From Flavobacteriia bacterium (GTDB lineage: Bacteria > Bacteroidota > Bacteroidia > Flavobacteriales > Flavobacteriaceae): 36,063 nucleotides of DNA. Numbering within the stretch: the stretch's first letter is position 1; each line of letters begins with the position of its first letter. The DNA lies in the NCBI GenBank assembly GCA_030625645.1, contig DAOUQH010000006.1, forward strand, positions 1-36,063, given 5' to 3'. Both the position numbers and the translations under genes were made by a program. Under the pieces are notes generated by a model. The model worked only from the letters and a program-made list of their open reading frames with translations, did not search any database and was not told the DNA's origin. Below, one piece after another: positions 13,079 through 26,237 of the stretch.

Positions 13079-14542
13079 TTGAGAATATTAAAAGACATAT
13101 TATATAAAGTTGCTGTAAAAGCGGTAAAAGGCTCAACAGATATCAAGATCAAACAAGTTGAATTTGATTCTAGAAAAGTTGAAAGTAATACTTTGTTTGT
13201 TGCACAAAAAGGACTTTCATTTGATGGTCATTCTTTTATATCAAAGGCTATTGCTGATGGAGCTGTTGCTGTGATTTGTGAAGAATTACCAAAAGACATA
13301 CAAGATAATATAACCTATATTAAGGTAAAAGATAGCAATGAGGCTTTGGCAATAATTGCTTCCAATTTTTACGAAAATCCTTCCGAAAAATTAAAATTGG
13401 TTGGAGTTACGGGTACCAATGGCAAAACAACTATTGCAACTTTACTGTACACTTTATTTAAAAATGCTGGACACAGAGCAGGATTGTTATCAACGATTAA
13501 AGTAATGGTTGATAATCTTGAATTTCCGGCTACACATACAACACCTGATTCACTTTCAATCAATAAGTATTTACATGAAATGGTAATGCAAAAAGTGGAA
13601 TATTGTTTTATGGAAGTGAGTTCTCACGGAATTCATCAGAAACGTACTTCAGGTTTGGATTTTGATGGTGGAATTTTCACCAACTTAACACAGGATCATT
13701 TGGATTATCATAAAAGCTTTGCTGAATATCGCGACGTTAAAAAGCTCTTTTTTGATAATTTACCAAAAACAGCCTTTGCTTTGGTTAATGCAGATGATAA
13801 AAATGGCTTGGTAATGTTACAAAATACCAAAGCGAGTAAAAACACTTATGCATTAAAAACTATTGCTGATTATAAAGCTAAAGTTGTTGAAAATCAGTTT
13901 GATGGTTTGCATTTAGATATTAATGGCCAGGAAGTTTACACGAAATTGATAGGAGATTTTAATGCTTATAATTTATTGGCAATTTATGGTGTTGCAAATC
14001 TTTTGGGTATGGATAAGTTAGAAAATTTACGATTGATAAGTTCACTCGAAAATGTTTCTGGAAGATTCCAGTCAATTAGATCAGAAGGTGAAATTACTGC
14101 AATTGTCGATTATGCCCATACGCCTGATGCTTTAAAAAATGTTTTAGAAACGATTAATACAATTAGAACTCATAATGAGCAAGTAATTACAGTTGTTGGT
14201 TGCGGTGGAGATAGAGATAAAGGTAAGCGACCTAAGATGGGAAATATTGCTTCGGTGTTAAGCAATCAAGTTATTTTCACTTCTGATAATCCAAGAACTG
14301 AAGACCCAGAAGAGATAATAAAAGATATTGAAGCAGGTGTTAGTCCTGAAAATTATAAAAAAACAATTTCAATTACAGATAGAAAACAAGCTATTAAAAC
14401 TGCTTGTAAAATGGCAAATAAAAAGGATATAATTCTTATTGCCGGAAAAGGTCATGAAACCTATCAAATTATTGGAACAAAGAAAACAGATTTTGATGAC
14501 CTTAAAACTATTAACAATTTTTTTAAACAACTAGATAAATAA
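13079..14542 (+). CDS. murE: UDP-N-acetylmuramoyl-tripeptide synthetase MurE
   Basis: 487 aa, TTG start; [50 protein letters not shown]. Confidence 0.95.
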
Positions 14543-14547
14543 AAAGC

Positions 14548-15780
14548 ATGTTGTATTATTTGTTTGAATACTTAGAAAAACATTACCATCTCAGCGGAGC
14601 AGGATTATTTCAATATATCTCATTCCGTTCAGCAATGGCTTTTGCTTTCTCTTTATTAATTTCAACAATATATGGTAGAAGAGTTATTGATAAATTAAGA
14701 CGATTACAAATTGGAGAAACGGTAAGAGAATTAGGTTTAGAAGGTCAGAAAGAAAAAGCAGGAACTCCAACAATGGGAGGAATTATAATAATTTTAGCCA
14801 CTTTGATTCCGGTATTTCTCTTCGCAAAACTGGGTAATGTTTATATTATTTTACTGATAGTTACTATGATATGGATGGGTGCTATAGGATTTGTAGATGA
14901 TTATATAAAAGTGTTTAAAAAAAATAAAGAAGGTTTAAAAGGAAGGTTTAAAATAGTTGGTCAGGTTGTACTTGGGTCTTTTGTTGGTTTAGTGCTTTTT
15001 TTTAATCCTGATGTTACTGTAAAAGAAAAACTTCCTGCAAATGAGGTTGTAAAAGTTGAAAATTTAATTGTTCCTTCTAATCATTTTAGCGAGGAAATGA
15101 AATCTACAATCACTACAATTCCTTTTGTAAAAAATAACGAATTTGATTATGCAAACTTGATAAGCTGGATGGGTGAAGGTGCAGAAAAATATGTTTGGGT
15201 ATTATTTGTTTTTATTGTCATTTTTATTATTACAGCAGTTTCTAATGGTGCAAACTTAACAGATGGAATTGATGGTTTAGCAGCAGGATCTTCGGCGATA
15301 ATTGTATTGGCTTTGGCTGTATTTACATGGACTTCAGGTAATATCATTTTTGCTGATTATTTGAATGTAATGTACATACCTAATTCGGGTGAAATGACCA
15401 TTTTCATCAGTGCATTTGTTGGTGGTTTGGTTGGGTTTTTATGGTATAATGCTTTTCCGGCACAGGTGTTTATGGGAGATACAGGGAGCTTAACCATAGG
15501 AGGTGTAATTGCGGTAATCGCTATTGCAACCAGAAAAGAATTATTGATTCCAATTTTAGCAGGAATCTTTTTAATTGAAAATTTATCTGTGGTAATGCAG
15601 GTGGGTTATTTTAAGTTCTCAAGAAAGAGAACAGGAAAAGGTAAGCGCATATTTTTAATGGCACCTCTCCATCATCATTATCAGAAAAAAGGATATCACG
15701 AAAGTAAAATAGTTACCCGTTTTTGGATTGTAGGAATTTTATTGGCAGTATTATCCATTTTAACATTAAAAGTAAGATAA
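14548..15780 (+). CDS. mraY: Phospho-N-acetylmuramoyl-pentapeptide-transferase
   Basis: 410 aa; [35 protein letters not shown]. Confidence 0.96.
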
Positions 15781-15805: not shown

Positions 15806-16354
15806 ATGAGCTTAACAGCATTTGTTTCAAAACAAAATTTCACTACAAAAAATGCAATGGCTTCAAGAACAATGCAAGAGTTATTGAAAGTAAGAAAACA
15901 AACTATAAGAGATAGTTTTTCACTTAGTGAAAATGACGAACATAGATTGGAAAATGTTCTTAAAATTAATGGAGTGCAATATATAAATGATTCTAAAGCA
16001 GTAAATGTAAATGCAACATATTATGCCTTAGAAAGTATGGAGCATCAAACAGTTTGGATTGTTGGAGGTTTAGATAAAGGGAATGATTACCATTCTTTAT
16101 TACCATTAGTTCGTGAAAAAGTAAAAGCAATTATTTGCTTAGGAGAGCATAATTTTAAATTATTAGAAACATTTGAGAATGTTGTAGAATATATAATTGA
16201 AACTACCGATTTAGACGAAGCTGTTCAATTTGCATATAGATTATCAGAAAAAGGTGATTCAGTATTGTTATCACCTGCATGTGCAAGCCACGATCAATTT
16301 GAAGATTACCAAGAAAGAGGTTGGTTATTTAAAAGGGCTGTAAGAAACTTATAA
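15806..16354 (+). CDS. Stand-alone MurD C-terminal domain (truncated murD; N-terminal and ATP-binding domains absent)
   Basis: 182 aa; EHRLENVLKINGVQYINDSKAVNVNATYYALESM...VWIVGGLDKGNDYHSLLPLVREKVKAIICLG...LLSPACASHDQFEDYQERGWLFKRAV matches MurD domain 3; no GxxGKT P-loop; TAA immediately upstream in frame; only 25 bp separate it from mraY. Confidence 0.85.
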   Translation: MSLTAFVSKQNFTTKNAMASRTMQELLKVRKQTIRDSFSLSENDEHRLENVLKINGVQYINDSKAVNVNATYYALESMEHQTVWIVGGLDKGNDYHSLLPLVREKVKAIICLGEHNFKLLETFENVVEYIIETTDLDEAVQFAYRLSEKGDSVLLSPACASHDQFEDYQERGWLFKRAVRNL

Positions 16355-16381: not shown

Positions 16382-17587
16382 ATGACTCAGGTATTTAAAA
16401 ATATAAAAGGTGACAAAACCAGTTGGGCAATTATTGCAGTTTTAGCAATTTTTTCCTTTTTGCCAGTTTATAGTGCTAGTACCAATTTGGTATATGTTGC
16501 AGGTAATGGTACCACTTTGGGTCATTTAGTGAAGCACGCTGTTTTGTTGTTTTTTGGATTTGCAATAATTTATGGTACACACAAAATACCGTATAGATAT
16601 TTTAGTGGATTTTCGGTTTTGTTGTTGCCCGTTGTTATTGCACTTTTGGTTTTTACACTTGCAAAAGGAACCCTTATAGGAGGTGCAAATGCAAGTAGGT
16701 GGATTCAAATTCCTATTGTTGGAGTTGGGTTTCAAACTTCTACTTTTGCAGTAGTTGTTTTAATGATGTATGTTGCTAGATATTTATCAAAAAATAAGGA
16801 TAAACATATTAATTTTAAAGAAAGCATTATATACTTATGGATACCTGTTAGTGTTGTTTTAATGCTTATTCTACCAGCTAACTTTTCAACAACTGCAATA
16901 GCTTTTTTCTTGGTGCTGGTGCTGGCTTTTCTTGGAGGATATCCTTTTAAATATTTAATATCCATCATAGGAGCAGCAGTTTTGGTATTGGCAATTTTTG
17001 TTATTTCAGCTAAAGCATTTCCTGATACGATTAAGAATACAAGAATTGAAACCTGGAATAATAGGATTGAGAATTATATTTCCGGAGGAAGTGAAGAGAA
17101 TTATCAAGCTGAAAAGGCAAAAATAGCAATTGCCTCTGGTGAAATTAGAGGAAAAGGGCCAGGGAAAAGTGTACAAAAGAATTTCTTACCACAATCTTCT
17201 TCCGATTTTATTTATGCCATTATTGTAGAAGAATTTGGTTTAGCAGGAGCAATCATAATCCTATTTTTATACTTATTTCTACTTTTCCGAATTATAATAA
17301 TTGCAACAAAAACTGAAACAACTTTTGGCGTGTTATTAGTACTAGGTGTAGGTATTCCAATCATTTTCCAAGCAATGGTTAATATGGCGGTTGCAGTAGG
17401 TTTATTTCCGGTAACGGGACAACCCTTACCATTAATTAGTACCGGTGGAACTTCTATTTGGATGACTTGTTTCGCCATTGGAATAGTGTTGAGTGTGAGT
17501 GTTTTTAATGTACAAAATGAAAAAGAAACAGATATAAAAACAGAATTTGAAAACCCTTTAGATATTTTGCATGAAGCAGTTGGTTAA
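16382..17587 (+). CDS. ftsW: Cell division protein FtsW (SEDS glycosyltransferase)
   Basis: 401 aa polytopic; [56 protein letters not shown]. Confidence 0.95.
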
Positions 17588-18674
17588 CATATTGTTGAGT
17601 GGTGGTGGCACAGGAGGGCATATATATCCTGCAATCGCTATTGCAAATGAATTAAAAAGTAGGTATCCAAAAGCAAATTTTTTATTTGTAGGAGCAAAAG
17701 ATAGAATGGAAATGGAAAAAGTTCCACAGTTAGGGTATAAAATAAAGGGTTTAAATATTACAGGAATTCAAAGGAATTTGAGTACTAAAAATTTATCATT
17801 TCCATTTAAGCTGTTGAGTAGTTTATATAATGCAAATAAAATAATAAAGGTTTTTAAGCCAGATGTGGTTATCGGAACCGGTGGATTTGCATCAGGGCCA
17901 ACTTTATTTATGGCTAGTAAAAAAAATATTCCTTGTTTGATACAAGAACAGAATTCGTATCCGGGGATTACAAATAAATTATTAGCAAGTAAAGTGCAAA
18001 AAATTTGTACCGCTTATGATGGTTTAGATAAGTTTTTTCCTGAAGAGAAGATTATTAAAACAGGTAATCCTGTACGCCAAGATATATTGGATGTTTCCGG
18101 AAAAAGAGAAGAAGCATTAGAGCATTTTAAATTACAAAAAAATAAAAAGATTTTAGTTGTTTTAGGAGGTAGTTTGGGTGCAAGAAAAATAAATCAAATT
18201 ATTGAAAAAAATCTTGAAGAAATTCTTGATCTAGATGTTCAAATTATCTGGCAAACAGGTAAACTTTATATTGATGATTATAAAGAATATAATAGAAAAG
18301 AGTTTGTACAAACACATGCTTTTATTCAAAATATGGATTTATTATATGCTGTTTCCGATATAATAATTAGTAGGGCTGGAGCTGGAACAATTTCGGAGTT
18401 GTGTTTGGTAGGAAAACCTGTAATTTTTATACCATCACCAAATGTAGCTGAAGATCATCAAACTAAAAATGCCATGGCAGTAGTAAATAAAAATGCTGCA
18501 GAGATGATTAAAGAATCAGAATCGGATAAGAATTTTATATATCGATTCAAAAGCCTTATTCAAGATGAAAAAAGACAAAATATATTGAGTAGAAATATTA
18601 AAGAAATGGCTTTACCAAAAGCAACAAAGGAAATAGCAGATGCTGTGGAAAGTTTAGTAGAGATAACCAATTAA
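17571..18674 (+). CDS. murG: UDP-N-acetylglucosamine--N-acetylmuramyl-(pentapeptide) pyrophosphoryl-undecaprenol GlcNAc transferase
   Basis: 367 aa; [53 protein letters not shown]; overlaps ftsW by 17 nt. Confidence 0.96.
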
Positions 18675-18700
18675 TGAAATAAATAATAAAAAATTATGTG

Positions 18701-18787
18701 CTAAATACTGTGGTAACTATGGCAATTGAGGTAATAATGGGGGTTTTGACCAATAAATTGCCATAGTTCTAAAAATTTAGTATTCAG
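18701..18787. repeat. Nested inverted repeat in the murG-ftsQ gap (where murC would be expected)
   Basis: Perfect 13-bp arms AACTATGGCAATT (18715-18727) / AATTGCCATAGTT (18756-18768); outer imperfect arms CTAAATACT (18701-18709) / AGTATTCAG (18779-18787). Confidence 0.75.
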
Positions 18788-18795
18788 TAAATTAG

Positions 18796-19530
18796 ATGCT
18801 TAAAAAATATAACTCACATATCAAATTTATTTTACTTTTCTTGCTTGTAGCATTCTTATACGGATTTGCTAATATTAGAAATACAGATAAAAAAATAAAG
18901 GAGATTGACCTTATTTTTAAAAATGGAGGAAACCTTTTTATTACCTATGATTCGGTTAATAAATTGTTAATACAAAAAATGAAACCACTTAAAAAGCAAG
19001 CGATAGATAGTTTACATTTGAAAAGTATAGAAAAAGCAATACAGTCAAATCAGATGATTCAAAATGCTGAAATATTCTATACAAGTGATGGAAAGTTGGG
19101 GGCTGAAATTACACAAAGAACTCCGATTTTAAGAGTAGTTGATAGGTATAATTCTTACTATATTGATAAGTTTGGATTAAAAATGCCTTTATCAGATAAT
19201 TTTTCGGCAAGAGTTCCGATAATTTCAGGTAAAGTTGATATTAATAAGGATATTGATATAACAAATTTAGCAAGTAAGATATTAGAAGATGATTTTTTGA
19301 GAAAGCAAATAATTGGAATCGAACAAGAAGAAAATAACGGAGTTTGTCAATTTAGATTAAAAACTAGAATAGGAGATCAAATAGTTGTTTTTGGAACTTT
19401 GCAAAATTTTGAAAACAAAAAAAATAAGTTAAAAGTATTTTATCAAAAAGCATTAAAAGACAGTATTTTACAAAGATATGATACGATTAACTTGAAATTT
19501 AAAAATCAGGTTGTTTGTACTAAAAAATAG
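18796..19530 (+). CDS. ftsQ: Cell division protein FtsQ
   Basis: 244 aa; N-terminal TM, POTRA-like region and KAIQSNQMIQNAEIFYTSDGKLGAEITQRTPILRV; between murG and ftsA. Confidence 0.88.
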   Translation: MLKKYNSHIKFILLFLLVAFLYGFANIRNTDKKIKEIDLIFKNGGNLFITYDSVNKLLIQKMKPLKKQAIDSLHLKSIEKAIQSNQMIQNAEIFYTSDGKLGAEITQRTPILRVVDRYNSYYIDKFGLKMPLSDNFSARVPIISGKVDINKDIDITNLASKILEDDFLRKQIIGIEQEENNGVCQFRLKTRIGDQIVVFGTLQNFENKKNKLKVFYQKALKDSILQRYDTINLKFKNQVVCTKK

Positions 19531-19533
19531 AAT

Positions 19534-20835
19534 ATGGAAAACAACAATATAGCAGTAGGATTAGATATTGGAACAACAAAAATTGTTGCAATGGTAGGTA
19601 AAAAAGATGCCTACAATAAAATTGAAGTTCTTGGAACAGGAAGAGCTAAAAGTTTGGGTGTACATAGGGGTGTTGTTAATAATATCACACAAACAATACA
19701 TTCTATCCAAGAAGCGGTATCTGAAGCAGAAAGTATTTCAGGTGAAAAGATCCAAAAAGTAATTGTAGGTATTGCAGGGCAACATATTAGAAGCTTGCAT
19801 CACAGTGATTATATTACTCGTTCAAATCCAGATAAGGTAATTGATGAAAATGATATTGAACATTTGATAAATCAGGTTTATAAACTGGTAATGTTACCGG
19901 GTGAAGAAATTATTCATGTTCTACCACAAGATTATAAAGTAGATGGTCAAGCCGAAATAAAAACACCTATAGGAATGTATGGGGGTAGATTAGAAGCTAA
20001 TTTCCATGTTGTTGTTGGTCAGGTTTCTTCAATTAGAAACATTGGTAGGTGTATTAAAAGTGCAGGTTTAGAACTTGGAAGTATCACACTTGAGCCACTA
20101 GCATCAGCAAATGCAGTTTTGAGTCAGGAAGAGAAAGAAGCCGGCGTTGCTTTGATTGATATAGGAGGAGGTACTACAGACCTAGCAATTTTTAAAGATG
20201 GAATTATCAGGCATACAGCAGTGATTCCATTTGGCGGAAATGTGATTACCGAAGATATTAAAGAAGGTTGCTCGATTATCGAAAAACAAGCAGAATTATT
20301 AAAAATAAAATTTGGTTCTGCATGGCCTGGTGAAAATAAAGAAAATGAAATTGTTTCTATTCCTGGTTTAAGAGGTAGAGATCCAAAAGAGATTACACTA
20401 AAGAACCTATCTAAAATAATACATGCAAGAATAATTGAAATTGTCGAACAGGTTTTTCTTGAGATAAAAAATTATGGACATGAAGAAAGTAAGAAAAAAC
20501 TAATTGCCGGAATAGTTTTAACAGGAGGAGGGGCTCAGCTTAAACACATTAAACAGTTGGTAGAATATACAACTGGAATGGATACTAGGATAGGATATCC
20601 AAATGAGCATTTATCTAGTAATAGTGATACCGATTTATCTAGTCCTGCATTTGCAACTGCTGTAGGATTATTGATGAAAGGATTAAGCGAATTTGAGAAA
20701 GAAGCTAGAGAAGAAGAAAAAGAGGAACAAATCATTAATAGTGAAGAAAAGTCTGTACCACCAGAACAACCAAAAAGGACAGTTTTTGATAAATGGATAG
20801 ATAAGTTTAGAGATTTTCTAGAAAATGCAGAATAA
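19534..20835 (+). CDS. ftsA: Cell division protein FtsA
   Basis: 433 aa; VGLDIGTTKIVAMVG, VALIDIGGGTTDLAIF, GIVLTGGGAQLKHI. Confidence 0.96.
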   Translation: MENNNIAVGLDIGTTKIVAMVGKKDAYNKIEVLGTGRAKSLGVHRGVVNNITQTIHSIQEAVSEAESISGEKIQKVIVGIAGQHIRSLHHSDYITRSNPDKVIDENDIEHLINQVYKLVMLPGEEIIHVLPQDYKVDGQAEIKTPIGMYGGRLEANFHVVVGQVSSIRNIGRCIKSAGLELGSITLEPLASANAVLSQEEKEAGVALIDIGGGTTDLAIFKDGIIRHTAVIPFGGNVITEDIKEGCSIIEKQAELLKIKFGSAWPGENKENEIVSIPGLRGRDPKEITLKNLSKIIHARIIEIVEQVFLEIKNYGHEESKKKLIAGIVLTGGGAQLKHIKQLVEYTTGMDTRIGYPNEHLSSNSDTDLSSPAFATAVGLLMKGLSEFEKEAREEEKEEQIINSEEKSVPPEQPKRTVFDKWIDKFRDFLENAE

Positions 20836-20889: not shown

Positions 20890-22752
20890 ATGAGTATAGA
20901 TTTTAACAACATTTCATTTGATTTACCCAAAAATCAATCCAATGTAATTAAGGTGATTGGAGTTGGTGGAGGTGGAAGTAACGCCGTTAACCACATGTTT
21001 TCAAAAGGAATACAAGGTGTAGATTTTGCAGTTTGTAATACTGATGCGCAAGCCTTACAAAATAGCCCGGTTCCAACAAAAATTCAATTAGGAGTTTCTT
21101 TAACCGAAGGTTTAGGTGCTGGGGCTAATCCTGTAATTGGAGAAGAAGCGGCTAGAGAAAGTGTAGAGGATATTAAAAATATGCTTGATAAACGCTCAAA
21201 AATGTTATTTATTACTGTTGGAATGGGAGGTGGTACCGGAACAGGAGCTGCACCTGTAATTGCCAAAATTGCAAAAGAATTAGATATTCTTACTGTAGGG
21301 ATTGTTACTACACCATTTTCATTTGAGGGGAAAATGAGAAATGAACAGGCGCAAGAGGGGATAGATAAATTACGTGAACAAGTTGATTCTTTAGTAGTTA
21401 TTAATAATAATAAACTACGAGAGGTTTACGGTAATTTAGGGTTTAAAGCAGGATTTTCAAAAGCTGATGAGGTTTTGTCAACTGCAGCTATCGGAATAGC
21501 ACAGGTAATTACACATCACTATACACAAAATATTGATTTAAGAGATGCTAAAACTGTACTAGCAAATAGTGGTACTGCTATCATGGGTTCTGCAAAAGCA
21601 TCAGGTTCAAATCGAGCACAAAATGCAATAACAAAAGCATTGGATTCTCCACTTTTAAACGACAATAAAATTGCTGGTGCACAGCGTGTATTATTGTTGA
21701 TTGTTTCTGGAACTTCAGAGGTTACTATTGATGAAATAGGAGAAATTAATGATTATATTCAGTCTGAAGCAAAAACAAATGTAGATATAATCATGGGTGT
21801 TGGTGAAGAAGATGATTTAGGAGAATCTATTGAGGTAACAGTGATTGCTACAGGATTTAATCCCGAATTTCAACAAGAAATTGAAAGTAGAGAAACCAAA
21901 AAAATAGTTCACACTTTAGTGGAGGATAAAAAAGCAATTATTAAAGAAATTTCAAAGCCAGTTGAGTCTGAAAAAAGATATATTTTAGAAGAAGAAACTC
22001 CTGTTGCAGAGAAAGAGATTGATGTAAGAGATATTGAGGTGAATTATGAAGAAGTAACACCTCAAGTTGAAGATTTTCAAGAAGATTTTATCATTAAAAG
22101 CATTAGCACAAAGGAGGAAATAAGCGAGGAAAAAGTAGAAGATATCGAACAATTATCTGAAAATCAATTTTCATTTACCTTTGATTTACCGATTGAAGAA
22201 AAATCTTCAGAAAAGCAAAAATTTACAACAGAAGCTTCTGCAAAGAATATAAATATTTATGATCTTGAAGAAGTAAATCCAGAGGAAAAGGTTGAAACTA
22301 AAATAAAGCATACTTTAGATATTGAAGATGAATTTGCTCCAGAATTAAAGGTGTTGAAAAATATGAAAGGAGATGATGATAGTAGTGAAGATTTTGATAT
22401 TAAATTAAAGGTTACTAATGAAACTATTGTAAATGAAATTAAACCTAGTATTAGTATTGAAGAAAAAGATGTATCACCATTAAATCTTACAATTGAAGAA
22501 TTGCGTAAAAAGGCTGATGATCGTAGAGAAAAAATGAAAGATTTTAATTATAAATTCACCAATAGATTTAGTAGTAATATTGATGAAATAGAAAGTAAAC
22601 CAGCTTATAAACGAATGGGTGTTGATTTAGATGAAGTGTCTCATTCTTCAGATAATCATCAAAAAAAGTCTAGAATGACATTAGATATTGATGAGAATGA
22701 CGAAATACAATTCCGTTCAAACAACTCGTTTTTACACGATAATGTAGATTAA
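20890..22752 (+). CDS. ftsZ: Cell division protein FtsZ with long acidic C-terminal linker
   Basis: 620 aa; IKVIGVGGGGSNAVNHM, ITVGMGGGTGTGAAPVIA; C-terminal NSFLHDNVD. Confidence 0.97.
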   Translation: MSIDFNNISFDLPKNQSNVIKVIGVGGGGSNAVNHMFSKGIQGVDFAVCNTDAQALQNSPVPTKIQLGVSLTEGLGAGANPVIGEEAARESVEDIKNMLDKRSKMLFITVGMGGGTGTGAAPVIAKIAKELDILTVGIVTTPFSFEGKMRNEQAQEGIDKLREQVDSLVVINNNKLREVYGNLGFKAGFSKADEVLSTAAIGIAQVITHHYTQNIDLRDAKTVLANSGTAIMGSAKASGSNRAQNAITKALDSPLLNDNKIAGAQRVLLLIVSGTSEVTIDEIGEINDYIQSEAKTNVDIIMGVGEEDDLGESIEVTVIATGFNPEFQQEIESRETKKIVHTLVEDKKAIIKEISKPVESEKRYILEEETPVAEKEIDVRDIEVNYEEVTPQVEDFQEDFIIKSISTKEEISEEKVEDIEQLSENQFSFTFDLPIEEKSSEKQKFTTEASAKNINIYDLEEVNPEEKVETKIKHTLDIEDEFAPELKVLKNMKGDDDSSEDFDIKLKVTNETIVNEIKPSISIEEKDVSPLNLTIEELRKKADDRREKMKDFNYKFTNRFSSNIDEIESKPAYKRMGVDLDEVSHSSDNHQKKSRMTLDIDENDEIQFRSNNSFLHDNVD

Positions 22753-22862: not shown

Positions 22863-25800
22863 TTATTTACCAATAATTATTTTTTTAGAAACTTGGTTGT
22901 TTCCTTCGTTTATTTTTAAAAAATATAAACCTGTTTCTAAGTTGGTTAAATTTAAGTAAAAGTTATTATCTGTGATATTTCTTTTTTTGTAAACCAATTT
23001 TCCTGTAATATCATAAACAGTTACTTGCATTTCTTGAGTACTTTGTCTATTTATAAAAATATTACCATTTGATGGGTTTGGATAAACCTTTAAAGAATTT
23101 TTCTCATATTCATTAACGGCTAAGATAGCTGTAGCATCGATAGTAAAATTATCAATTAAGACACCTTCTTCATTGCTAGCTTGATCTGATGCAAAAACAA
23201 AACGGAAAACAATATTACTTTCATTATTTAGTGCAGCTAAATTATAACTATACTCTTTTAAAGATAAATCTGTACCTGTCCATTGTTTACCTACAGTAAT
23301 AGGTCTTTCTATGCTATGATAACTACTGTTATACCAATTTGGATCACTTGCTGATCCAAGAATACTCCAGCTTATTCCTTTATCTACTGTGTACTCTATA
23401 TAAAGCACATCCCAATCTAATTCGATATTAAATGCCATATCAAATCTTAAAACAGGATTTTCTAAAGAGGCAAGATTATAACATGGTGAAATTAAATAAC
23501 TAAAAGAATTATCGAAATAATTACCTGCCAAATTGGTAATATACGCGCTTTCAGAAAGATCTTTAAATACTGGTGTTGTTGCTTTTCCTTTTTGCCAAAG
23601 ATCATCGCTGCCCCCAATTGTTTTAACCTGCCATCTATCTGGATTTACATCACCAAATGTGTTGACATATTGTCCTTGTCCAGAGTTGTTTATAGTGAAT
23701 TTAGCCTTTAATTCATTATTCTCAATAAAGGCATCATTTGTAATGGTAGTTTCAACAACCATTTCATGCTCCCCGGGGGATAATGAATTATTTGCTGGTA
23801 AAGTAATTTCTTTATTATTATCTGAACTGATATTGCCTGTATATTGATGGGTAAAATTTTCACCATCAATACTGTAATTAATATCGATAACAGAAATAGT
23901 ATTCAAACCATTATTCTTTACTAAAATCACTGGTTTAAAATCTCCACATTGAATACTGTTATTACTTAAAATGGATAAGAGACTTACATCATCTCCAGCT
24001 TTTTTCACTTCAATAGGTGATTGCCAAACTCCTCTACCATACGTTCCAGCTGTTATAATTTTTTCATTCACGTTTATTTCAATATCCTTAACAGGAACAT
24101 TGGGTAAACCTTTTGAAAATACTTCCCATTCTGTCATTTCATCATTAATATGATATACACCTAAAGATGTTCCAACATATAAATCATTATCGGGACTTTG
24201 ATTTTGATGTCTAATAATAAATTTTGGCTCATTTGGTAAGTTCAAATCTATACTAGTCCAATTTGCCCCTCCATTAATTGATTTATAAACATTATTGTTG
24301 TAAAATCCGCCAAGCGTTAAATAAACTATATTATTATCACTATTATTTATTTCTATGGAAGTAATCTTTCCAATAAAGCTAGTGGTAAGTGTAGTAAAAT
24401 TAAGCCCTCCATCTTCACTTTTGAAAATTCTATCTGATTTTGAAACATATACAAGATCATTATTTGTAGTTGATATTTCAATATTATCTAGATCTCCACC
24501 AAAAACATCATCCGAAACAGCTTCCCAATTTCCACTTTTAAGTTTGTATAATTTTTTATAACCTGCAAAAAGTTCACCATCTTTATTTGCTAAAAGTGGA
24601 GTAACCCAATTACCACCACTGTCAGTATCACTCACTTCATCAGCAGGAGCTGAAGTAACTCTTGATCCATTTCCTCCGCCATTATAAGTTACATTTAAGC
24701 TGCCGCCATATTGTGTAAAACCGTAGTAAGTATTTTCATTGTTTGGATCTATCGCACAATCCATTCCATCTCCTCCATGATATTTATGCCATATATCATT
24801 ACTGTATCCAAAACCACCATTATCCTGTAATCCTCCAGCTATATTTTTTGCTGAATTTTTTGCTGTAGCAATTTTATAATATTGACTAATATTAAGTGTT
24901 TCAGTTAAATCTTTAAAACTTGCTCCCTCATTAGCAGATTGGTATATTCCACCATCAGTACCAGCATATAGTTTATTATTAAAATATCGCATAAAATGAA
25001 TATCTGCATGCGTATAAGAAGGGTCTTCAGAGTTCCACCAACGATTAATCTGTGAAAAATTATTACCACCATCTGTAGATTTCCAAATATCAAGAACACC
25101 TACATAAATAATTTTCTCATTTGTAGGAGAAACTGTTAAAGCCAAATCATACCAAGCTTGTTTGCTTACAAAAATATCATCTGTTTCAGCTGTTTTAATA
25201 AATGTATCTCCACTATCAGTCGATTTATATAATCCTTCAAAAGAATAATCAGACTTTGCACATAAAACGTAAAGAGCACTTGGGTTTGCAGCTGTAACGT
25301 CAATAACCATTCTAGAAGAAGTAGTTGGTAGATTATCCGTTATTTGTGTAAAAGAATCTCCTCCATTTGTAGATTTATAGAAATTTTTTGAAGTAACTGC
25401 GTATAGTGTGTTTGGATCACCTGGTTTAAGTTTTAAATCGCCAAAATTACCTTCTTGCATATTTTTCCATTTGCCACCGGCATCAGTTGTTTTGTAAATC
25501 CCGTTACTTGTTGCAACCCAAAGTATATTTGAGTTGTTAGGGTGAATATAAATTTCGTTTGAGGAAGAGTAAGGATCTGTAAATTCCAATCCAGTTTTAT
25601 TCCATGTACTACCACCATCAGTAGATTTCATAACCCCTATACTATAAGAATCATTTGCATCATCATCGCCGGTTGATATATAAATAATGTTTGAATTGTT
25701 TGGGTCAATAGCAATTCCTGAAACGCCAATTTGTGGTAAATTATCAGATAATGGTCGCCAATTTTTACCAGCATCTGTAGATTTCCAAATTCCACCAGAA

Positions 25801-26237
25801 GGTGCTCCAACATAAAAGGTATTGGCATTGTTTGGATCTACAATAAATGTGTTAATCCTTCCTTGTCCATCTTTTACATTGGTTGTATATGGCCCAAGTG
25901 AACTCCAATCTCCTCCATCACTAAATTTTTTAGCAATTTCATTTTTTTGCTCCCATGCATCCCAAAGCATAGTTGGAGGTGCTATATAGCCACCTTTAAT
26001 TGTATAATGTTTCCAATGATTTTCCCAACGTTTAAAAGGCTTATAGCCACTTCCTTTGGCTTGCCAATCTTTGTCTTTAAAATATGCATTAAAATTATTG
26101 GTTAATGTTTGAATGGTTTGTTCAGATGATTTTGCTACATTTTCTTGGTTCTGAACCCATGGAGCATTTTCATTATATTGGGCTTGGATTGCAAACGTAA
26201 TTAAAACAAAAAACAGAAAAGTATAAGTATTTTTCAT
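22863..26237 (-). CDS. Large secreted Asp-box/BNR-type beta-propeller protein with T9SS type A C-terminal sorting domain
   Basis: 1124 aa; N-terminal signal; at least nine S-x-D/N-x-G-x-x-W/F repeats (e.g. WKSTDAGKNW, MKSTDGGSTW, YKTTDAGGKW); C-terminal LKVYPNPSNGNIFI...TGLYFLKINEGNNQVSKKIIIGK. Confidence 0.88.
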   Translation of the reverse strand: MKNTYTFLFFVLITFAIQAQYNENAPWVQNQENVAKSSEQTIQTLTNNFNAYFKDKDWQAKGSGYKPFKRWENHWKHYTIKGGYIAPPTMLWDAWEQKNEIAKKFSDGGDWSSLGPYTTNVKDGQGRINTFIVDPNNANTFYVGAPSGGIWKSTDAGKNWRPLSDNLPQIGVSGIAIDPNNSNIIYISTGDDDANDSYSIGVMKSTDGGSTWNKTGLEFTDPYSSSNEIYIHPNNSNILWVATSNGIYKTTDAGGKWKNMQEGNFGDLKLKPGDPNTLYAVTSKNFYKSTNGGDSFTQITDNLPTTSSRMVIDVTAANPSALYVLCAKSDYSFEGLYKSTDSGDTFIKTAETDDIFVSKQAWYDLALTVSPTNEKIIYVGVLDIWKSTDGGNNFSQINRWWNSEDPSYTHADIHFMRYFNNKLYAGTDGGIYQSANEGASFKDLTETLNISQYYKIATAKNSAKNIAGGLQDNGGFGYSNDIWHKYHGGDGMDCAIDPNNENTYYGFTQYGGSLNVTYNGGGNGSRVTSAPADEVSDTDSGGNWVTPLLANKDGELFAGYKKLYKLKSGNWEAVSDDVFGGDLDNIEISTTNNDLVYVSKSDRIFKSEDGGLNFTTLTTSFIGKITSIEINNSDNNIVYLTLGGFYNNNVYKSINGGANWTSIDLNLPNEPKFIIRHQNQSPDNDLYVGTSLGVYHINDEMTEWEVFSKGLPNVPVKDIEINVNEKIITAGTYGRGVWQSPIEVKKAGDDVSLLSILSNNSIQCGDFKPVILVKNNGLNTISVIDINYSIDGENFTHQYTGNISSDNNKEITLPANNSLSPGEHEMVVETTITNDAFIENNELKAKFTINNSGQGQYVNTFGDVNPDRWQVKTIGGSDDLWQKGKATTPVFKDLSESAYITNLAGNYFDNSFSYLISPCYNLASLENPVLRFDMAFNIELDWDVLYIEYTVDKGISWSILGSASDPNWYNSSYHSIERPITVGKQWTGTDLSLKEYSYNLAALNNESNIVFRFVFASDQASNEEGVLIDNFTIDATAILAVNEYEKNSLKVYPNPSNGNIFINRQSTQEMQVTVYDITGKLVYKKRNITDNNFYLNLTNLETGLYFLKINEGNNQVSKKIIIGK

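Follow-up and report, generated by a model that had tools for sequence, protein, structure and literature searches.

The genus Lutimonas (Flavobacteriaceae) has lost two enzymes of the peptidoglycan pathway. In its ancestor murC disappeared entirely and murD lost its catalytic two thirds, and murE, mraY, murG, murF, mpl and murI stayed. We regard this loss as near certain. Textbooks count both enzymes as essential, and both are targets for antibacterial agents. Most likely, their two steps have been replaced by a different route.

The window is a stretch of 36,063 nucleotides (contig C77) from a Lutimonas metagenome-assembled genome (MAG; 1.96 Mb, 69% complete). It carries a dcw cluster in the order mraZ, mraW, ftsL, ftsI, murE, mraY, murD', ftsW, murG, ftsQ, ftsA, ftsZ, where murD' denotes a truncated murD. 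On the forward strand, murE (13079..14542) is full length with the DAP-type motif DNPR. It is followed by mraY (14548..15780), identified from its sequence, murD' (15806..16354), ftsW (16382..17587), murG (17571..18674), ftsQ (18796..19530), ftsA (19534..20835) and ftsZ (20890..22752); mraY, ftsW, murG, ftsA and ftsZ stand in the same order in relatives. Next to ftsZ, on the minus strand (22863-26237), lies a gene for a 1124-aa repeat protein that looks BNR/VPS10-like by eye and has a C-terminal sorting-type tail. A similar ORF occupies the same location in three other MAGs (G001, G003, G005). Searches for phage and plasmid sequences yielded nothing informative.

The original prediction placed a missing murC between murG and ftsQ, and the sequence bears this out: murG stops at 18674, ftsQ starts at 18796, and nothing Mur-like lies between them, with murE, mraY and murG kept. 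The 121-bp spacer (18675..18795, forward strand) is the site where sister genera have murC. Searching the clusters by tblastn with a sister MurC and the N-terminal half of MurD returned only cross-matches to murE, so that the claimed absence of a Mur-ligase remnant holds. The spacer had also been described as AT-rich DNA; it is not empty, and contains a conserved hairpin that had been overlooked. The reported truncation of murD is real. The product has 182 aa and covers only positions 273-440 of the 441-position MurD model TIGR01087.

The same architecture is found across the genus. All four relatives with a cluster share the 182-aa murD' and the murC gap, as does every Lutimonas locus spanning murG to ftsQ; sister genera carry murC and a full-length murD. 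Scanning GTDB genomes with the fragment led to the name of the genus, and the truncated murD occurs in 22 genomes. Most are MAGs, and the firmest basis for the loss is two isolates (L. halocynthiae CECT 8444 and L. saemankumensis DP2N0-7) and one closed chromosome (CP070731.1). The incompleteness of the window MAG could suggest that murC and murD exist and are simply missing from the assembly or annotation. We give this virtually no chance: the truncation recurs in 22 genomes, murC is absent wherever the junction is spanned, and a tree of MurD sequences (below) points to a single ancestral truncation. The isolates and the closed chromosome equally refute a collapsed assembly, which the original prediction had named as an alternative.

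Neither enzyme was found elsewhere by its domain. We searched for PF08245, the Mur ligase middle (ATPase) domain, at E-values up to 1. Six GTDB genomes of the genus have no proteins above the curated cut-off beyond MurE, MurF, Mpl and FolC; sister genera and other relatives in the family typically have six. Over the whole genomes of the two isolates and the closed chromosome, the search again returned only these four, except that L. halocynthiae has a further homologue of 886 aa (L108, G420:C17:194213-194845). Proteins of similar length occur in several sister genomes. The search finds no murC elsewhere and no fifth PF08245 protein common to the genus, and gives no support to a relocated MurC or MurD or to a fused or additional Mur ligase. 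The original prediction had proposed relocation or replacement of the two steps; relocation finds no support here, and replacement by another route is the most likely explanation.

A second lineage has lost the same steps. Among 398 genomes of the order, murD is absent from all four genomes of one genus (g30) in another family (f11), which are up to 99% complete. The other murD misses listed were mainly 0.3-Mb symbionts or incomplete MAGs. The four f11 genomes (G034, G049, G061, G070) also lack murC and murI. All four have murF and mpl, three have murE (G061 gave no match), and their PF08245 proteins are MurE, MurF, Mpl and FolC only. In G034, ftsW comes immediately after mraY, and ftsQ immediately after murG. 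Family f11 lost murC, murD and murI independently of Lutimonas. These data support a coordinated loss of both steps, since it extends over the whole of Lutimonas and has recurred in a second family. Two sediment Bacteroidales MAGs are a third, partial case: each has a separate 182-aa murD fragment that keeps the D-Glu residues (L092:7956-8504, L093:6767-7315), murC is intact, and no other MurD ligase domain was found in either. A 654-aa PF08245 protein of a Bacteroidales MAG was considered as a MurD and set aside, its sequence being a MurF-alanine racemase-type fusion.

The remaining part of murD is a gene under purifying selection, not debris. The encoded protein has 180-183 aa across Lutimonas (one longer ORF call, L080), and pairwise dN/dS is 0.04-0.10, comparable to murE and murG. 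It aligns to the C-terminal 168 positions of TIGR01087 and has a single Pfam domain, PF02875; profile matches on the window protein include neither the N-terminal UDP-MurNAc-L-Ala domain nor the central ATP domain PF08245. In a tree of MurD C-terminal domains, all Lutimonas fragments form one clade (support 100/99) among Flavobacteriaceae MurD, most simply explained by one ancestral truncation and vertical inheritance. AlphaFold models a confident domain from residue 50 (mean pLDDT 79.9) whose best Foldseek matches in the PDB are all MurD, and MurD' is predicted to fold as a complete MurD domain 3.

Conservation of the residues that bind substrate is poor. Lutimonas MurD' keeps 49 of the 88 positions that are near-invariant in 23 full-length sister MurD proteins. 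The D-Glu-binding residues of MurD are T321, K348 and S415 in E. coli numbering (PMC3527612). 

These residues are kept in all 23 full-length sisters; among the 26 Lutimonas copies T321 is kept in 2, K348 in 11 and S415 in 11. The window copy keeps K348 and S415 and has V at T321. Since D-Glu contacts are lost in most copies while purifying selection and the MurD fold persist, MurD' looks like a conserved pseudoenzyme domain. We take it to be a non-catalytic protein that probably serves the Mur and divisome proteins as a structural or regulatory partner.

The hairpin in the murG-ftsQ spacer (18694..18770, forward strand) consists of the 5' sequence GTGCTAAATACTKTGGT, a long stem with perfect 13-bp arms (18715-18727 and 18756-18768) and a GGGG loop. 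It folds better than all of 200 shuffled sequences (z -4.5). An alignment of 14 copies has a common 5' motif, GTGCTAAATACT, and the GGGG loop; 93% of cells pair, and six pairs have compensatory changes on both sides. Slid controls, which retain the relatedness of the sequences, are 32-47% paired. The covariation score was reached by 0 of 500 shuffles, although kinship of the sequences limits what shuffles prove. With a covariance model, nine Lutimonas genomes each give a single copy at a clear score, which lies between murG and ftsQ wherever the context was read. In 12 sister genomes and two f11 genomes the model finds none, one chance-level match aside. Comparison with Rfam gave no family, the only match being at chance level and on the other strand.

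In most copies a short T-run comes after the stem, which makes a terminator or an ftsQAZ leader likely. Lying in the murC scar, the hairpin probably acts on the transcript in one of these ways and sets murG apart from ftsQAZ. The conservation of its 5' motif and loop hints at a function beyond simple termination. A leader peptide encoded in the spacer was rejected, as its reading frame is not maintained among the copies (L080 carries an insertion of 2 bases). Taken as a whole, the reading that the MurD pseudoenzyme domain, together with an RNA hairpin fixed in the murC scar, became integral to a rewired cluster is tentative, and we give it clearly less than an even chance.

How the first two stem residues are supplied can be approached from the enzymes that are left. 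Mpl is the only remaining enzyme known to join a peptide to UDP-MurNAc. In our best reading, these residues would no longer be added one by one; Mpl would instead load UDP-MurNAc with a ready-made L-Ala-D-Glu(-DAP) peptide. The mechanism is inferred, and we put its likelihood somewhat short of even. Both isolates, the closed chromosome and f11 retain mpl; the PF08245 search did not find it in two Lutimonas MAGs, G002 (51% complete) and G005 (90%). Lutimonas Mpl is full length, with three Pfam domains and 67-75% identity to most Flavobacteriaceae orthologues. It has no conserved-site substitution pointing to a new specificity, and conversion of Mpl to MurC or dipeptide specificity was therefore rejected. 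The murE gene is under strong constraint (dN/dS 0.035-0.083), and its retention suggests that the bypass would deliver a dipeptide rather than a tripeptide.

Three sources of the dipeptide can be proposed. It could be derived from peptides by an epimerase of the L-Ala-D/L-Glu family, come from muropeptides that are imported or recycled, or be made by a putative L-Ala + D-Glu ligase. The epimerase is present in six of seven Lutimonas genomes searched and in all four f11 genomes. It has the enolase-superfamily motifs KxK, DAN, EQP, ADES and NIK, and its best PDB match is 3iji; it scores below the curated NCBIfam cut-offs for the AEE and DgcA models. No export signal was seen in the Lutimonas protein, and the f11 copy that was read (G034) has a Tat-type signal. 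The epimerase also occurs in sisters with murC and murD (G012, G019) and is not specific to the loss lineages. Lutimonas MurI has both catalytic cysteines intact (murI was not found in the incomplete window MAG), which suggests that free D-Glu is still used and favors a ligase as the source. In f11, the loss of MurI favors the epimerase or imported or recycled muropeptides.

The evidence on the Mpl bypass points both ways. Mpl is kept and the epimerase is present in both lineages, and a studied Mpl, PaMpl of Psychrobacter arcticus, weakly accepts L-Ala-D-Glu (1.4 per min) and L-Ala (0.7), compared with 260 per min for the tripeptide (PMC3060825). Multicopy E. coli mpl also rescues a murC(ts) mutant (PMC3060825). 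Against the bypass, PaMpl uses the dipeptide at a rate about 190-fold below that for the tripeptide (PMC3060825), Lutimonas Mpl has no specificity substitutions, and mpl was not found in the two MAGs. The epimerase is shared with sisters that have murC and murD, its f11 copy was read with a Tat-type signal, and neither an epimerase nor scavenging, taken alone, accounts for an active MurI in Lutimonas.

Intact MurI would be accounted for if a non-homologous enzyme added the L-Ala and the D-Glu, whether directly on UDP-MurNAc or by making a free dipeptide for Mpl to attach, with MurI supplying D-Glu in Lutimonas. The catalytic cysteines are kept though no MurD is left to use D-Glu, and the genus shares no fifth Mur-ligase middle domain, which fits an unrelated enzyme. 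We nevertheless consider this doubtful, because searches with PF13535 and PF07478 gave no ATP-grasp dipeptide ligase common to all Lutimonas and because f11, without MurI, is not explained. PF07478 matched one Ddl and scattered paralogues. Strong PF13535 (ATP-grasp_4) matches were confined to the MAGs G001, G003 and G005, each with a protein of 364-392 aa (L213, L214, L215) that is absent from the isolates and sisters.

Scavenging of murein tripeptide from other bacteria, attached by Mpl, would suit both the preference of Mpl for tripeptide (PMC3060825) and the position of the f11 epimerase gene, which encodes an export signal and adjoins an NlpC/P60 endopeptidase gene in G034. It would make MurE redundant and murE dispensable, yet murE is strongly constrained, and Lutimonas isolates grow in culture and have genomes of 3.6-4.0 Mb; we find this route unlikely, slightly more so than a non-homologous enzyme. 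Far less probable is a split ligase, with Mpl or MurE lending its ATP and UDP-MurNAc domains to MurD' in trans. MurD' has a constant length of 180-183 aa, is under purifying selection, is predicted to be a complete domain 3, and is present where MurI is present (Lutimonas) and absent where it is absent (f11). However, the D-Glu contacts are gone in most copies, and the Mur-ligase active site requires precise domain closure within one chain.

The loss covers a whole marine genus, including cultured strains, with the rest of the wall pathway kept. If the bypass is true, the MurC and MurD steps can be circumvented naturally, and a cultivable genus without both enzymes, plus a second independent case, offers a direct way to find the route to the first two stem residues. 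We found no description in the open-licence literature of murC and murD loss in Lutimonas, or of their combined loss in a free-living bacterium.

Compared with the canonical MurC-MurD-MurE-MurF pathway, Lutimonas has the same dcw order of murE, mraY, ftsW, murG, ftsQ, ftsA and ftsZ, with murF and mpl elsewhere, but murC is absent and murD is reduced to a non-catalytic C-terminal domain. A full-length Mpl-type ligase is kept, as in the recycling pathway of P. arcticus (PMC3060825); there it is a side branch, whereas in Lutimonas Mpl would be the sole, putative entry of peptide onto UDP-MurNAc. The epimerase shares enolase-superfamily catalytic motifs and its closest structure, 3iji, with the L-Ala-D/L-Glu epimerase (AEE) of muropeptide catabolism, but falls below the NCBIfam equivalog cut-offs and would here provide dipeptide for synthesis. 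Among known deviations, MurD2/MurL of Xanthomonas comes nearest; it replaces the D-Glu step only, and MurD2 is a complete MurD-like ligase with UDP-MurNAc-L-Ala as its substrate (PMC8788868). It is likewise a natural replacement of the D-Glu step, and f11 likewise lacks murI; Lutimonas differs in having no extra Mur ligase in the PF08245 search and in having lost MurC too.
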